DNA of 38,501 nucleotides from Deinococci bacterium (GTDB taxonomy: Bacteria > Deinococcota > Deinococci > Deinococcales > Trueperaceae), in assembly GCA_030149325.1 (NCBI GenBank), contig JASBRS010000028.1, forward strand, positions 1-38,501. Direction: 5' to 3'. Shown here piece after piece: positions 4,004-13,436 of the stretch. Numbering within the stretch: the first letter of the stretch is position 1; every line of letters starts with the position of its first letter. The notes beneath the pieces are model-generated. The model was not told the DNA's origin. It did no database searches and saw only the letters and a program-made list of their open reading frames with translations. The position numbers and the translations under genes are program-made.

Positions 4004-4537
4004 GTGTTGGCCATCGATGCCGTGCATGCCTACGCCACCGTCAGGATCGCCTCGCCGGCCGACCTGACCGCGGTACGTGACGTCGCATCGATGACCTGGC
4101 ACGCCACCTACGGCGACATCCTCAGCCGACCCACCATCGACGCCTTCCTGCGCCGCGCCTACAGCGATTACCGCATCCTCGCGGCCGTCAACGACGGCGG
4201 CCTGTGGGTCCTGGAGGAGGACGGCCGGGTGGTGGCCTACCAGCGCCTCAGCATGCGGGGCGACGTCGGCTACGTCGGTGCCATCTACGTCCTGCCGGAG
4301 GCGCAGGGCCACGGGCATGGGCGCCGGCTGTTCGACACCGCACGGCCCTGGTTCGCCGCCCGTGGCGCGCGCGAGATCCGCTTGACGGTGGCCGAACGGA
4401 ACGAGGCCGCCCGCGGCTTCTATCGCCACCTGGGCTTCACCGAGATGGAGACGGTCGACTCGCACCTGCTGGGCGAACCCCTCCAGGAGCGTGTGTGTGT
4501 GCTCCCGTTGATGCAGCCCTACCTGTTCGACGACTGA
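4004..4537 (+). CDS. GNAT-family N-acetyltransferase
   Basis: A 177-residue acetyl-CoA-dependent N-acetyltransferase; the substrate is not identifiable. The GNAT core is clear. It opens with RIASPADLTAVRDVASMTW. Motif A is VGAIYVLPEAQGHGHGRRLF, where the Q/RxxGxG/A acetyl-CoA loop reads QGHGHG. The C-terminal motif B is NEAARGFYRHLGF. GGAG at 3996-3999 precedes GTG at 4004 by four bases and TTG at 4007 by seven, so either could be used; GTG 4022 is a further in-frame option. The first ATG in frame (in MTWHAT) would remove conserved sequence. It is the only plus-strand gene in the first 8 kb, and it converges on the next gene with a 7-base gap. Substrate assignment from sequence is not possible. 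Confidence 0.88.
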   Translation: MLAIDAVHAYATVRIASPADLTAVRDVASMTWHATYGDILSRPTIDAFLRRAYSDYRILAAVNDGGLWVLEEDGRVVAYQRLSMRGDVGYVGAIYVLPEAQGHGHGRRLFDTARPWFAARGAREIRLTVAERNEAARGFYRHLGFTEMETVDSHLLGEPLQERVCVLPLMQPYLFDD

Positions 4538-4544
4538 CGCCGAC

Positions 4545-5444
4545 TCAGCAGCGCCACCACCCCAGGCGCCCGCCTTCGAGGCGGGCCTCGACGCGGCCCT
4601 GCTCGCGCAGGTAGCCGAGGTACGCGGCGACCGTGCACAGGTTGAGGTGGTAGCGGGGGAGGTCGCCCACCTCGACGCCGAGCGCGCGACAGGCGGCCAC
4701 CGCCACCTCCTCGCTACTGCCGCCCTGGCACGCCGTGACCACCGCATCGGCCGCCCGCCGTACCGCGGCGGCGTTGGCGTCGGCGGCCGCCGCCAGGTCC
4801 TCGGTGGGATCGCCGTGGCCGGGTAGCGCCAACCGCACGCCGCTCGAGCGCACCACCTCGAAGCCGGCGAGCTGACCCGCGATGTCCTGGCCGAACGGCA
4901 GCGGGTAGCGCTCGAGCACCGCCTCGCCGAAGAACGCGTCGGCGGCCAGCAGCACGTCGTCGACCCGGACGGCGAGCTGACGGTGGGCGTGACCGGAGGT
5001 GTCGAGCAGCTCCAGCTCCACGCCCGCCAGCGCCAGGGCGCCGGGCTCGACCTCGACGTGGACGGGGGAGGCCTCGGCCTGGAGCCACTTGCTCGTGAGC
5101 TCCGGCAGCGGGCGGGCGCCGTGGAACAGGTAGACGGGTTCCAGGTAGGGCGCGCGTACGATGCTCGCCTCGAAGGGCGGCGCGTGCACGGTGAGCTCGG
5201 GGAACTGCCGCAGCAGGTAGGCGTTGCCGCCGAAGTGGTCGGCGTGGGCGTGGGTGTTGAGGATGGCGACGGGGGTGACGCCGAGGTCCTCGCAGGCACG
5301 CCGAAGGTGCCGCCCGTAGTCCTTGTCCTGCCCCGTGTCGACCAGCACGGCCTGCGCGTCCTCGCCGACCACCACGGCGCAGTTGACGCCGCCGGGGAGG
5401 TAGTGCACGCGTTCGGAGAGCTTCACGAGTTCCGGTCTCGCCAC
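4545..5444 (-). CDS. Metallo-beta-lactamase fold hydrolase (glyoxalase II-like)
   Basis: A 299-residue single-domain metallo-beta-lactamase hydrolase. The metal motif is NTHAHADH (63-70), with the next ligands in DTSGHAHRQL (around 150) and LPGHGDPT (around 212), the pattern of glyoxalase II-like and related thioester or lactone hydrolases. The extra C-terminal part, about 70 residues (AAVRRAADAVV... to GRLGWWRC), looks like the helical/winged tail seen in longer members. The start is GTG at 5444, with GGGAGGGA seven bases upstream; no ATG gives a better fit. It has no beta-CASP motifs, so it is distinct from the RNase 600 bases away. Substrate unknown. Confidence 0.88.
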   Translation of the reverse strand: MARPELVKLSERVHYLPGGVNCAVVVGEDAQAVLVDTGQDKDYGRHLRRACEDLGVTPVAILNTHAHADHFGGNAYLLRQFPELTVHAPPFEASIVRAPYLEPVYLFHGARPLPELTSKWLQAEASPVHVEVEPGALALAGVELELLDTSGHAHRQLAVRVDDVLLAADAFFGEAVLERYPLPFGQDIAGQLAGFEVVRSSGVRLALPGHGDPTEDLAAAADANAAAVRRAADAVVTACQGGSSEEVAVAACRALGVEVGDLPRYHLNLCTVAAYLGYLREQGRVEARLEGGRLGWWRC

Positions 5445-5482
5445 CGCTCGGTCCCTCCCATCCCACCCGCCGGCGGCTCACG

Positions 5483-5524
5483 GGCCGGGCCGTCGGGCCC
5501 GGCCATGCTACCGCCGCAGGCGGT
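5483..5524. repeat. Two GC-rich hairpins upstream of the hydrolase gene
   Basis: The first is a perfect 9-bp stem at 5483-5504 (GGCCGGGCC, loop GTCG, GGCCCGGCC). The second is a 6-bp stem at 5510-5524 (ACCGCC, loop GCA, GGCGGT). They sit between the end of rsmB and the next minus-strand gene, where a terminator would be expected, but no T run follows. Confidence 0.65.
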
Positions 5525-5563
5525 GCCGCGCAGCTCGCGACGCTGGCCGGCCTTGGCGGCCGC

Positions 5564-5673
5564 CGTCAGGCGCGACGCAGGCGTGCGTCAGGCGCGACGC
5601 AGGCGTGCGTCAGGCGCGACGCAGGCGTGCGTCAGGCGCGACGCAGGCGTGCGTCAGGCGCGACGCAGGCGTG
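5564..5673. repeat. Five perfect tandem copies of a 22-bp unit at the 3' end of rsmB
   Basis: The copies are 5564-5585, 5586-5607, 5608-5629, 5630-5651 and 5652-5673, and all are identical. Each unit begins CGTCAGGCGCGACGC on the plus strand. Across each junction TGCGTC and GACGCA flank a 6-base loop, so every unit can fold. The copy at 5652-5673 is also the last coding bases and the TGA of rsmB, and the other four lie downstream of the stop in the direction of transcription. Because 22 is not a multiple of three, successive copies place TGA in all frames. Confidence 0.95.
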
Positions 5674-6934
5674 CGACGAAGAAGCCGTCGAGGCCTTCCA
5701 GCGGCAGCAGGTAGGCGCCGTGCGGCGACGCCACGTGGGGGACCGAGGGGGCGAGGACGTCGGCTGTGAACTCGGGGTGGCGATCGACGAAGGCGCTCAC
5801 CTGCGCCTCGCCCTCCGGCTCGAGCAGCGAGCACACCGCGTACACCAGCCGTCCTCCCGGCGCGGTGAGCGCGGCGGCGGTGTCGAGCATGGACGCCTGC
5901 CGGCGCGCGGTCTCGGCGACGTCCGAAGGTCCGAGCCGCAACTTGATCTCGGGGTGGCCCCTCAGGGTGCCGCTGCCGCTGCAGGGAGCGTCCAGCAGCA
6001 CCGCCGGGGCGGCTGCCAGATCGAGGCGCCGCGTCAGGTCGGCGGTGCGGTGCTCGGCCGTCAACCCCAGGCGGCGGAGGTTGGCGGCGCTCGCCCGCGC
6101 CTTGCGCTCGTCGACCTCGACCGCCGTCACCCGAGCGCCGGCGGAGGCCAGTTGCGCCGTCTTGATGCCGTGGCCGGCTGCCAGGTCGAGCACGCGTTCG
6201 CCCTCGCTGGGCGCCAGCAGCTCGGCGGCCAGGCACGACGCGGGGTTCTGGGGCTGGACGGCACCGTCCCGGTACGCCTCCAGCCGGTCGAGCGGCCGCG
6301 GCGCGCGCACCCTGAGGGTGCCCGCCACGGGGCCGGGCGCGACCTCGCACCCGTCGGCCAGCAGACGCTCGGCCGCGTCGGGGGTGTAGGCCCGCAGCCA
6401 CAACGGGCCCGGCTCGAGCATCGCCGCGGCCGCGCGCTCGGCGTCGGCGTCCCCCAACGACACCCGGAAACCCTCGAGGAGCCAGTCGGGCAACGCCAGG
6501 CGTGCGGCGGGCGTGGGCGAGATCGGAGGCTCGACGCGACGCAACACCGCGTTGACCAGCCCCGCCATGCGCGGGTGGTCGGCCTTCACGGCCTCGACCC
6601 AGGCGTGGACCCCGGCATGGGGCGGGGTACCGCGGATCAGGAGATCGTAGCTGCCGAGTCGCAGGGCGCAGAGCACCGGCCCCGGGAGCTGCTCCGGCGC
6701 GCGCAGGCGCGGCGCCAGGGCGGCGTCGAGCCACGCGAGGCGCCGGAGGGTGCCGTAGCTGAGGTCGGTCACGAAGGAGCGGTCGACGGGGGCCAGATCG
6801 GACCGGTCCAGCGCCGAACGGAGCGACGGCGCCAGGAAGGCGCCGTCGAGGACCCGCTCCATCACCTGCATGGCGAGCCGCCGTGCCGATCCCGCCGCGG
6901 CCGCGGAGCGCCGGCCGGGGCCCTCGGCGGTCAC
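5654..6934 (-). CDS. rsmB: 16S rRNA (cytosine-5) methyltransferase RsmB/NOL1-Sun family
   Basis: SAM-dependent RNA m5C methyltransferase, most likely for C967 of 16S rRNA. The 426 residues carry an N-terminal NusB-like helical domain (about 1-140, including RSFVTDLSYGTLRRLAWLD) and a C-terminal Rossmann methyltransferase. The two family cysteines are present, in LLDAPCSGSGTLRGHPE and YAVCSLLEPEGE. The SAM-binding motif reads VLDLAAGHGIKT instead of the usual D-x-CAAPGGKT, a notable divergence. The start is GTG at 6934, overlapping the TGA of the upstream peptidase gene by GTGA. This start keeps the N-terminal helix that the first ATG (in AMQVMERV) would partly lose. The last residues ARLRRA and the stop lie inside the 22-bp repeat array. 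Confidence 0.93.
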   Translation of the reverse strand: MTAEGPGRRSAAAAGSARRLAMQVMERVLDGAFLAPSLRSALDRSDLAPVDRSFVTDLSYGTLRRLAWLDAALAPRLRAPEQLPGPVLCALRLGSYDLLIRGTPPHAGVHAWVEAVKADHPRMAGLVNAVLRRVEPPISPTPAARLALPDWLLEGFRVSLGDADAERAAAAMLEPGPLWLRAYTPDAAERLLADGCEVAPGPVAGTLRVRAPRPLDRLEAYRDGAVQPQNPASCLAAELLAPSEGERVLDLAAGHGIKTAQLASAGARVTAVEVDERKARASAANLRRLGLTAEHRTADLTRRLDLAAAPAVLLDAPCSGSGTLRGHPEIKLRLGPSDVAETARRQASMLDTAAALTAPGGRLVYAVCSLLEPEGEAQVSAFVDRHPEFTADVLAPSVPHVASPHGAYLLPLEGLDGFFVARLRRA

Positions 6935-7620
6935 CGCCGCGAAGCGCCGAGGAAGTACAGCAGGTAGGCGATCGAGGTAGCCGCGGCGGCCACGTAGGTC
7001 ATGGCGGCGGCGGTCAGCACCTTGCGGGCGCCGCCCTGATCGCTGCCGGTGACCAGGCCGAGGCGCTGGAGCTGGACCAGAGCGCGCCGGCTGGCGTCGA
7101 ACTCGACCGGCAGGGTCACCAGATGGAACACCACGGCCGCCGCGAAGAGCGCGATGCCGACGCCCAGCAGGGGTTTGCCGGCGACGCCGAGGAACAGCCC
7201 GAACAGGGCCAGCATGGGCCCGAACTGGCTGCCGATGTTGGCTACCGGCAGGATGGCCGTGCGCCACGCCAGTGGCGCGAAGGCGCGGGCGTGCTGGATG
7301 GCGTGGCCCGTCTCGTGCGCGGCGACCGCCATGCCGGCGACACTGGCGCTCCGATAGTTGTCGGCCGACAGCCGCACCACCCTCTGCGACGGGTCGTAGT
7401 GGTCGCTGAGCTGCCCGGGAACCGCCACCACCTGGACGTCGTTCAGCCCGTTGGCCTCGAGGATGGCGCGGGCCACCTCGGCGCCGGAGAGCCCGGCGGT
7501 GTTGGCTCGCTTCATCCACGTCCCGTAGGTGTTCTTCAACCAGCCCTGGATCGCCAGCGATGCGATGAACGCGACGATCCCGATCACGTAGTAGCCGAAG
7601 TAGCCGAAACCGAAGATCAT
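6931..7620 (-). CDS. YugP-type membrane zinc metallopeptidase
   Basis: A 229-residue integral membrane peptidase of the neutral zinc metallopeptidase family that includes B. subtilis YugP. The zinc motif is AAHETGHAIQH, with His102, Glu103 and His106. Hydrophobic helices lie at about 5-25, 115-140, 145-170 and near the C-terminus (AAAATSIAYLLYFLG). The N-terminal pattern FGYFGYYVIG and the mid-protein DHYDP...VRLS are typical of the family. The start is ATG at 7620 with GAGG five bases upstream. Its TGA overlaps the rsmB start (GTGA), so both are one transcript. Two perfect palindromes lie in the 175 bases between spoVS and this gene. Its substrate is not known. Confidence 0.9.
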   Translation of the reverse strand: MIFGFGYFGYYVIGIVAFIASLAIQGWLKNTYGTWMKRANTAGLSGAEVARAILEANGLNDVQVVAVPGQLSDHYDPSQRVVRLSADNYRSASVAGMAVAAHETGHAIQHARAFAPLAWRTAILPVANIGSQFGPMLALFGLFLGVAGKPLLGVGIALFAAAVVFHLVTLPVEFDASRRALVQLQRLGLVTGSDQGGARKVLTAAAMTYVAAAATSIAYLLYFLGASRR

Positions 7621-7676
7621 GCTGCCTCTCGTCCTCCTCGTCGGAGCCGCGCGACGACCGCGCAGCGGTACGAACG

Positions 7677-7699
7677 GGCGCGCCGAGGCTCGGCGCGCC
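7677..7699. repeat. Perfect GC palindrome upstream of the peptidase gene
   Basis: Arms GGCGCGCCGAG and CTCGGCGCGCC (11 bp each) flank a single central G. It lies between spoVS and the peptidase gene, both minus strand. It may end the spoVS transcript as a hairpin, but there is no following T tract. Confidence 0.75.
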
Positions 7700-7703
7700 G
7701 AGT

Positions 7704-7720
7704 TGAGTAGAGTCTACTCA
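7704..7720. promoter_or_regulatory. Operator-like palindrome TGAGTAGAGTCTACTCA
   Basis: Two 8-base arms are perfectly inverted around one central base, 84 bases upstream of the peptidase start and only four bases from the GC palindrome at 7677-7699. It is one of the few AT-richer spots nearby and resembles a dimeric repressor site. The minus strand reads TAGACT inside it, a possible -10 box, but no good -35 was found. No cognate regulator is identifiable. Confidence 0.5.
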
Positions 7721-7794
7721 GGTTATGTGAGAAACCATGGCATCCCCGCCTACGGTCCACCGCGAGGGGACCCAGGCCGGGGGTGCCCGGAGCT

Positions 7795-8070
7795 TCAGGG
7801 CTTCGCGACCTCGATCGACACCACCGCGAAGCGTACGGCGGTGCGCTCCTCGTTCTGGAGCTCGAGCTTCACGAACGACGGAGCCGTGTGCAGGTCGAGC
7901 CCCTCCGCCTCGATGTAGGAGCGGGCGATGGCGATCGCCTTCACCGCCTGGTTGACGGCATGCGGGCCGATGGCTTGGACCTCGACCTCACCCTCGTTGC
8001 GTAGAAGCGCGGCGATGGCCCCCGCTACGGAGTTGGGTCGCGACGATCCGGAGACGCGTAGGATTTCGAT
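7795..8070 (-). CDS. spoVS: Stage V sporulation protein S (SpoVS) family protein, apparent ATC start
   Basis: Small 91-residue SpoVS-family protein (Alba/SpoVS-like fold, thought to bind nucleic acid). It is widespread in Deinococcota and other non-sporulators, so the name need not mean sporulation. The signature is unmistakable: EILRVSGSSRPNSVAGAIAA, then EVEVQAIGPHAVNQAVKAIA and FVKLELQNEERTAVRF. The first codon at the position where homologues have Met is ATC (8070-8068). A perfect AGGAGGT lies five bases upstream (8082-8076), and an in-frame TGA at 8091-8089 excludes any earlier start. No ATG, GTG or TTG follows in frame until a GTG in NQAVKAIA, roughly halfway through. Either AUC is the real initiator or one base is wrong in the assembly. 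It is divergent from the ilv operon. Confidence 0.93.
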   Translation of the reverse strand: MEILRVSGSSRPNSVAGAIAALLRNEGEVEVQAIGPHAVNQAVKAIAIARSYIEAEGLDLHTAPSFVKLELQNEERTAVRFAVVSIEVAKP

Positions 8071-8075
8071 GGTGG

Positions 8076-8082
8076 ACCTCCT
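8076..8082 (-). promoter_or_regulatory. Shine-Dalgarno that fixes the spoVS start
   Basis: The minus strand reads AGGAGGT, fully complementary to the 16S rRNA tail, five bases before the ATC codon at 8070. This places initiation at a non-canonical codon, because nothing else lies at a usable distance. Confidence 0.85.
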
Positions 8083-8112
8083 GAGGGTTCATCCGTGCGT
8101 AGCCGTCCCGGC

Positions 8113-8128
8113 GCCGGCCGAGGCCGGC
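8113..8128. repeat. Palindrome in the spoVS upstream region
   Basis: GCCGGCC and GGCCGGC flank GA. It lies in the gap (8071-8267) between spoVS and the ilv promoter. I could not identify a spoVS promoter in this gap with confidence. Confidence 0.55.
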
Positions 8129-8267
8129 AGGCGGGCTCCCGAGGGCTCGCCGTTGAACGAGAACCGTGACTCCTCCCCTTCGTTCCCTCCCGAGTTCGTG
8201 TCTCGTGTCGCTCTAGTGTGCGGCATCCGAGGCTCGGCCCGCAAGCGCAAGCGCCACGCGGCGTTCC

Positions 8268-8297
8268 TTGACACTTCCGGGGGCCGGTCCGTATACT
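8268..8297 (+). promoter_or_regulatory. Promoter of the ilv-leu operon
   Basis: The -35 is TTGACA (8268-8273, perfect), then an 18-base spacer and the -10 TATACT (8292-8297). Transcription should begin near 8303-8305, that is one to three bases before the ATG of the leader peptide at 8306, so the transcript would be essentially leaderless. Confidence 0.85.
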
Positions 8298-8305
8298 CCC
8301 CCCCA

Positions 8306-8377
8306 ATGACGAGCGACCCCCACGCATACGGCTGGATCGTAGTCCTAGGGCTAGGTCTCCGGGGTCGTACCGCTTAG
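8306..8377 (+). CDS. ilv leader peptide (attenuator control peptide)
   Basis: A 23-codon reading frame starting ATG at 8306 and ending TAG at 8377. Its centre is the run IVVLGLGL, coded ATC GTA GTC CTA GGG CTA GGT CTC. These are the three amino acids made by the operon behind it, including CTA and GTA codons that are scarce in this GC-rich sequence. There is no Shine-Dalgarno, and the -10 box ends eight bases before ATG, which suggests leaderless translation. The reading frame overlaps segments 1 and 2 of the attenuator, so ribosome stalling on the control codons would free segment 2 to pair with segment 3 and let transcription continue into ilvB. Known ilv/leu leader peptides work the same way; the assignment here is from sequence. 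Confidence 0.88.
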   Translation: MTSDPHAYGWIVVLGLGLRGRTA

Positions 8378-8405
8378 ACGCTTCGGCTGAAAGCCACGGA
8401 CCCCG
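8314..8405 (+). promoter_or_regulatory. Attenuator pairing segments 1, 2 and 3
   Basis: Segment 1 is CGACCCC (8314-8320, inside the leader reading frame). Segment 2 is CGGGGTCG (8360-8367). Segment 3 begins GACCCCG (8399-8405). Segments 1 and 2 can pair over seven bases (CGACCCC with GGGGTCG). Segments 2 and 3 can pair over seven bases (CGGGGTC with GACCCCG) as an antiterminator. Segment 3 is also the left arm of the terminator, so the 2:3 and 3:4 states exclude each other. Confidence 0.8.
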
Positions 8406-8435
8406 CCTCAGGTCGAGAACAAGGCGGGGTCTTTT
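8399..8435 (+). terminator. Rho-independent attenuator terminator upstream of ilvB
   Basis: A perfect 10-bp stem, GACCCCGCCT (8399-8408) with AGGCGGGGTC (8422-8431), loop of 13 bases, followed directly by TTTT. It stands 33 bases upstream of ilvB and 21 bases after the leader peptide stop, the place expected for a transcriptional attenuator. Confidence 0.9.
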
Positions 8436-8468
8436 CGTATCGGAACGGAATCGAGGTAGGAGGAGCCC

Positions 8469-10172
8469 ATGAATGGTGCAGAAGCCCTGTTGAAGGCGCT
8501 CGAGCGACAAGGGGTGGACCTCGTGTTCGGCCACCCGGGGGGCGCGATCCTGCCTGTCTACGACGCGCTCTACGACTCCCCGATCAAGCACGTCCTGGTC
8601 CGCCACGAGCAGGCGGGCGCCCATGCCGCCGACGCCTACTACCGCGCCTCCGGCCGCGTCGGCGTGTGCTTCGCCACCAGCGGCCCCGGCGCCACCAACC
8701 TCGTCACCGGGCTGGCGACCGCCCAGATGGACTCCTCCGCGGTGGTCGCCGTCACCGGCAACGTCGCCAGCTCGCTGATCGGCACCGACGCCTTCCAGGA
8801 GGCCGACGTCTACGGCATCACGGGACCGGTGACCAAGCACAACTACCTCATCAAGAACGTCGAGGACATCCCGCGTGTGGTGGCCGAGGCCTTCCACATC
8901 GCTGCCACGGGCCGGCCCGGGCCGGTCCTCATCGACGTCCCCAAGGACATCCAGCAGGCGGAGTTCCGCGGCAGCTTCGAGGTCGAGATCGACCTGCCGG
9001 GCTACCGCCCCACGGTGGTGGGGCACGCCCGCCAGGTGCGCAAGGCCGCCGAGGCCATCCGCGCCGCGGAGCGCCCGGTGATGATGGTCGGCGGCGGCGG
9101 CCAGGTGGCCTCCGAGGAGGTGCTGGCGTTCGCCCGCAAGACCGGCATCCCGGTGATCACCACGCTGATGGGCATCGGCGCCTTCCCGGCGGGGGAGCGC
9201 CAGGCGCTGGGCATGCCGGGCATGCACGGCACCGTCACCGCCAACCGGGCGATCACGCACTGCGACCTCATCCTCGGGGCCGGGTTGCGCTTCGACGATC
9301 GGGTGACGGGCAAGATCAGCCGCTTCGCGCCCAACGCCACGGTCGTGCACATCGACATCGACCCTGCGGAGATCTCCAAGCTCGTCAAGGCGCACGTGCC
9401 GGTGGTCGGTGACCTGCGCGACGTGCTGCCGCGCTTGGGCGAGGAGCTCGAGCCGCTCGCCATCGACGCCTGGTGGGAGCAGATCGAGGCGTGGAAGGGG
9501 ATGTATCCGGAGCGCTACAAGAAGGACAAGCCGCTGGTGTCGCAGGAGGTCATCCAGCTCCTGCGCGAGGCCAGCGGCGGCGACGTGGTGGTGACCACGG
9601 AGGTCGGCCAGCACCAGATGTTCGCCGCGCGGCTGTTCCCGACGACGCGTCCGCGGAGCTTCATCACCTCCGGCGGCCTGGGCACCATGGGCTTCGGCCT
9701 CCCCGCCGCGGTCGGCGCGGCCTTCGCCCGCCACGACGAGACGGTGGTGTGCGTGGCGGGAGACGGCAGCGTGCAGATGAACATCCAGGAGCTCGCCACC
9801 GTCTACAAGCACCAGCTCCCGATCGTCATCGCCATCCTCAACAACGGCGTGCTGGGCATGGTGCGGCAGTGGCAGGAGATGTTCAGCGCCGAACGCTACT
9901 CAGAGATCTACCTGGCCGATTCCAACCCCGACTTCGCCAAGCTGGCCGAGGCCTACGGCATCGAGAGCTACAACATCTTCGACCGCGAGACGGCCAGGGA
10001 GCTGGTACCCCAGGCGCTCGCCCGGAAGAAGCCGGTGCTGCTCAACTTCTTCGTCTACGAGGCCGAGAAGGTGTTCCCGATGATCCCGGCCGGTGCCGGC
10101 GTCGACGAGATGATGTTGGGCGATCAGGAGCCCGACGAGGTGACGGCGGACGGTCCGGAGGTGACGGCGTGA
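8469..10172 (+). CDS. ilvB: Acetolactate synthase large (catalytic) subunit
   Basis: ThDP-dependent condensation of two pyruvates to 2-acetolactate (valine/leucine), or of pyruvate with 2-oxobutyrate (isoleucine). The 567 residues show the catalytic glutamate in VRHEQAGAH (Glu47), the FAD-associated middle domain (RFDDRVTGKI), and the ThDP/Mg motif from GDGSVQMN to LNNG. The start is ATG at 8469 behind TAGGAGGAG. It is the first structural gene of the operon, directly behind the attenuator. The stop TGA overlaps the ilvN GTG start (GTGA), as expected for two subunits made in fixed ratio. A clear biosynthetic AHAS rather than another ThDP enzyme, because ilvN follows. Confidence 0.98.
   Translation: MNGAEALLKALERQGVDLVFGHPGGAILPVYDALYDSPIKHVLVRHEQAGAHAADAYYRASGRVGVCFATSGPGATNLVTGLATAQMDSSAVVAVTGNVASSLIGTDAFQEADVYGITGPVTKHNYLIKNVEDIPRVVAEAFHIAATGRPGPVLIDVPKDIQQAEFRGSFEVEIDLPGYRPTVVGHARQVRKAAEAIRAAERPVMMVGGGGQVASEEVLAFARKTGIPVITTLMGIGAFPAGERQALGMPGMHGTVTANRAITHCDLILGAGLRFDDRVTGKISRFAPNATVVHIDIDPAEISKLVKAHVPVVGDLRDVLPRLGEELEPLAIDAWWEQIEAWKGMYPERYKKDKPLVSQEVIQLLREASGGDVVVTTEVGQHQMFAARLFPTTRPRSFITSGGLGTMGFGLPAAVGAAFARHDETVVCVAGDGSVQMNIQELATVYKHQLPIVIAILNNGVLGMVRQWQEMFSAERYSEIYLADSNPDFAKLAEAYGIESYNIFDRETARELVPQALARKKPVLLNFFVYEAEKVFPMIPAGAGVDEMMLGDQEPDEVTADGPEVTA

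Positions 10173-11876: not shown

Positions 11877-13436
<1,560 letters not shown>

Follow-up and report, generated by a model that had tools for sequence, protein, structure and literature searches.

A five-copy tandem repeat of the rsmB 3' end in a Trueperaceae bacterium and comparable arrays at other gene ends

The rsmB locus and its array

The window analyzed in this work, a stretch of 38,501 nucleotides, carries on its minus strand the 16S rRNA methyltransferase gene rsmB, and this name is correct because Pfam finds both the NusB and the RsmB/F domains in its product (Table 1). The gene located upstream of rsmB encodes a Zn_peptidase_2 protein according to Pfam, while the next gene downstream, on the same strand, encodes a protein with a metallo-beta-lactamase fold. 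Window positions 5564-5673 consist of five perfect head-to-tail 22-mers with the unit CGTCAGGCGCGACGCAGGCGTG, which start at positions 5564, 5586, 5608, 5630 and 5652. Among all arrays reported by TRF within the window, this one has the highest score. The rsmB protein terminates with ...GFFVARLRRA*, and the first unit to be transcribed supplies its last residues ARLRRA together with the TGA stop codon, as stated in the initial annotation. That annotation also described the repeat as an amplified rsmB 3' end with four identical copies past the stop, and TRF, a unit search and the position of the ORF end confirm both points. The four post-stop units lie downstream in the direction of transcription and hence at lower plus-strand coordinates. 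A dinucleotide CG that follows the five units at the opposite side is the sole microhomology remaining at the array edges.

Table 1. Features of the rsmB locus in window coordinates
Feature	Coordinates	Strand	Basis or remark
rsmB, 16S rRNA m5C methyltransferase	5654..6904, start approximate	-	PF01189 E=9.6e-35 (RsmB/F), PF01029 E=4.2e-18 (NusB)
rsmB stop codon TGA	5654-5656	-
TRF array	5564-5675		Period 22, 5.1 copies, 100% match, score 224
Founder unit	5652..5673	-	Last rsmB codons (ARLRRA) plus TGA; end of minus-strand ORF 5654..7519
Four additional identical 22-bp copies past stop codon	5564..5651	-	TRF and unit search
Partial repeat CG	5674..5675	-	TRF array extends 2 bases past five units
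Inverted repeat GGGCCGGGCCGTCGGGCCCGGCC	5479-5515		Between TAGCAT and proposed start of metallo-beta-lactamase-fold gene
Metallo-beta-lactamase-fold gene, next downstream, same strand as rsmB	4545..5444, proposed start GTG at 5444	-	PF00753 E=1.2e-17

Between the array and the metallo-beta-lactamase-fold gene we noted a -10-like element, TAGCAT, and the array stops ~50 bp before it. An inverted repeat is located between this element and the proposed gene start. In many relatives, a TAxxxT element occurs only ~7-10 nt ahead of the ATG, as in leaderless transcripts.

The TGA triplets of the array are found at +0, +22, +44 and +66 and cover all three reading frames, just as the initial annotation reported. 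Its further suggestion was that the array acts as a backstop catching stop-codon readthrough and frameshifts. In favor of this, TGA occurs in every frame within 44 nt, compared to a one-copy version of the locus in which the two remaining frames would lack a stop for 58 and 143 nt. However, stops in all frames do not point to design because 22 mod 3 = 1, and any TGA-bearing unit with a length that is not a multiple of three gives all-frame stops automatically. Moreover, the rsmB array of relative G014 and several other arrays have no stop codon at all, and the +1 and +2 frame stops would be relevant only to rare slips near the gene end. A backstop role is thus unsupported and very unlikely.

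The arms TGCGTC and GACGCA, which had been proposed to fold within each unit, are present, but the stem formed by them crosses the unit boundary. A string of such RNA hairpins could in principle stabilize or terminate the rsmB mRNA, given that a 6-bp stem is possible at each unit boundary and that the region folds better than its dinucleotide shuffles (z = -3.05). This value is inflated because dinucleotide shuffling destroys the repeat, whereas repetition itself boosts folding. When compared to shuffled units repeated equally often, the array yields z = -0.65, and 8% of the shuffled units reach a 6-bp arm. Twenty other stop-anchored arrays likewise show no folding advantage over shuffles (mean z = +0.56), with an array of relative G013 being nearly unfolded. 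The rsmB array is followed by no terminator-like U-tract, no intrinsic terminator (GC-rich stem plus U-tract) was found in window positions 4400-8600, and the Rfam search returned no family at gathering score and a single chance-level match outside the array. The claimed hairpin string is therefore unsupported, and we consider a hairpin element, which was rejected by the unit-shuffle controls, to be improbable.

Uniqueness of the unit and rsmB ends in relatives

Even with up to 3 mismatches allowed, no other copy of the 22-mer was detected in the genome of 3.04 Mb, and a 25-base pattern taken from the array had zero exact matches in a genome contig database. A dispersed repeat family was rejected on these grounds. 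The unit is also absent from all of the ~35 family relatives with a readable rsmB 3' end; the genomes searched included no second genome of the genus, which makes this a comparison of family-level relatives. The identity of the five copies and the absence of the unit from these relatives together indicate a recent expansion of the array, which the initial annotation had proposed, next to strong homogenization, from perfect identity alone. An assembly artefact is highly improbable, even though perfect short repeats weaken short-read assemblies and the genome comprises 102 contigs. The 112-bp array is shorter than a common short read and should hence be spannable, a collapse would reduce rather than raise the copy count, and similar arrays occur in the single-contig relatives G007 and G013.

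The end of the RsmB protein is conserved in kind across the relatives, as DGF(F/Y)xARLRR or a similar sequence, so the unit that encodes it is the original and the other four are its copies. Different tandem arrays at or near their own rsmB stop were found in four relatives, and most of the relatives have none. These are a 17-mer in 4.6 copies whose unit lacks a stop codon (G014), a 21-mer in 2.3 copies (G013), a 36-mer in 2.1 copies (G007) and an 18-mer in 2.2 copies (G011). They have a common position and tandem layout but no common sequence.

Arrays at other gene ends and their reading frames

The recurrence of such copies was assessed in sampled stretches that cover 363 kb of the own genome, including the window, and parts of the genomes of relatives. 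A gene end was counted when the gene's last 16 bases recurred downstream with at most 3 mismatches, and the null expectation was obtained by swapping spacers among genes; genes were called with an improved caller that finds the window rsmB. In the own-genome sample, the terminal 16-mer recurs downstream at 5 of 330 gene ends, against a null mean of 0.8. Besides rsmB, with an offset of 22 bp, these are the ends of a CAP-domain protein gene (20 bp), a short ORF without a Pfam match (25 bp), a carbon-nitrogen hydrolase gene (71 bp) and a HycI-type hydrogenase maturation protease gene with several copies (93 bp), the copies at all four including the stop codon. The four units are related neither to each other nor to the rsmB unit. 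Since like arrays follow other genes, the array feature is not tied to rsmB.

Two of these gene ends have additional features. The HycI-type protease gene adjoins a NiFe-hydrogenase gene, and at its end (L076, 15830-16207) the last ~31 codons plus the stop are repeated in frame with a period of 93 bp, about 4.1 copies and 95% match, each copy finishing with ...GVAAGF(G/W)GTRG*. The 71-bp end of the carbon-nitrogen hydrolase gene, stop included, is tandemly duplicated at L064, 13240-13393. An out-of-frame ORF at this site (12891-13370) passes back into the second copy and reads it in the native frame.

Across seven family samples, terminal 16-mer copies were found at 18 of 1470 3' ends, where the null gives 2.6. 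The 5' ends yielded 3 of 1405, with a null of 2.3, and the two rates differ by Fisher's test (p = 0.0015); the 5' figure is the weaker one as the underlying gene calls are approximate, starts most of all. The 3'-end rate is driven mainly by G000 and G007, and the same test gave zero in the samples of G014, G016, G005+G019 and G015. Two genomes of another family gave 4 of 381 (null about 0.3), mostly distant imperfect copies.

Arrays at other genes were also surveyed with a simple gene caller, which misses the window rsmB and underlies the array, period and spacer-density counts given below. By random placement, 7.0 intergenic arrays would be expected to touch a called stop; 21 do so, or 18 when the rsmB arrays of relatives are left out. 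Stop-anchored arrays occur at rsmB in 4 of 34 relatives (the window excluded) and at 20 of 461 other gene ends, the latter from genomes that were not randomly chosen (p = 0.07); an rsmB-specific hotspot is hinted at by these numbers, which are not significant, and remains unconvincing.

Array periods are divisible by three in 60 of the 69 coding arrays compared to 20 of the 57 noncoding and edge arrays (p = 1e-9), and the latter share equals the chance expectation. This frame filter agrees with prior knowledge (PMC4679880; PMC6749651), including the preference of in-gene repeats for unit lengths divisible by three (cited in PMC4679880). A stop-spanning duplication of any period is silent for the protein because translation ends in the first unit, so that gene 3' ends can store arrays irrespective of their period. 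In gene bodies, the periods are mainly divisible by three, and no excess of copies is seen at 5' ends. A duplication over the start codon would create a second start in competition with the first; the asymmetry between 3' and 5' ends can therefore be explained without function.

Array density declines from 0.70 per kb in convergent spacers to 0.36 between same-strand genes and 0.18 between divergent ones. This gradient fits the tolerance view, and promoter constraint in divergent spacers may contribute to it. Upstream regulatory DNA of the metallo-beta-lactamase-fold gene, with the units serving as repeated binding sites, would account for the position of the rsmB array upstream of this gene, on the same strand and with TAGCAT in between. 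This is nevertheless most unlikely, as the unit is found once in the genome, the relatives show either an unrelated unit or no array in the equivalent place, and like arrays occur in convergent spacers, where no gene starts.

Proposed origin and comparison with known repeats

With a probability of roughly 0.8, we consider the rsmB array to be a recent, protein-silent minisatellite that arose by slippage or tandem duplication as one of several independent events and is probably neutral. Replication slippage or tandem duplication would have copied the 22 bp that comprise the last six rsmB codons and the stop, and further copy-number slippage would then have enlarged the array. It probably persists because the protein is unaltered regardless of unit length or copy number, and its distance from the -10-like element ahead of the next gene may also have helped. 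The same process has probably acted independently at further gene ends of this genome and of some relatives. It is doubtful, though conceivable, that tandem copying of gene 3' ends across the stop is unusually frequent in this family (~1.5% of gene ends in the own-genome sample) and more concentrated at 3' ends than protein-level tolerance would predict, e.g. with slippage favored at sites where transcription stops or runs into replication. These results call for caution, as a genome-wide baseline is needed before a function such as a backstop or a hairpin string is assigned to one perfect repeat.

Our literature search for tandem copying of gene 3' ends, largely without subscription papers, returned only general papers on tandem repeats. 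Taken alone, the rsmB array is a minisatellite of the ordinary sort and a candidate marker for strain typing. It resembles the bacterial minisatellites or VNTRs of the MLVA type, which originate by slippage and are built from perfect head-to-tail units, 10-100 bp in length, at one site of the genome: its units are 22 bp long, occur five times with 100% identity, and are confined to a single locus of the own genome at up to 3 mismatches. In contrast to these, its founder is a coding gene end with a stop codon, and it is known here from one genome. MIRU elements are tandem units in same-strand intergenic spacers that can overlap a stop codon and belong to one dispersed sequence family. The rsmB array shares with them the location of tandem units between same-strand genes, but its 22-mer does not occur at many loci.

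Unique and unrelated satellites, many of them noncoding, are scattered in some prokaryote species ('Satellites in the prokaryote world', PMC6749651). In Beggiatoaceae, one intergenic heptamer, TAACTGA, forms 169 dispersed sets that mostly precede start codons (PMC4679880). Several intergenic arrays of related CTACTGA/GACTACT heptamers in relative G013, including one after its rsmB, resemble these dispersed repeats (L120, 8908-8955; L127, 2531-2591, 4686-4758 and 16795-16845). The rsmB array is likewise similar to the TAACTGA sets in that repeats lie beside or over stop codons and provide three-frame stops in one orientation; however, its unit is unique and derived from the gene that precedes the array.
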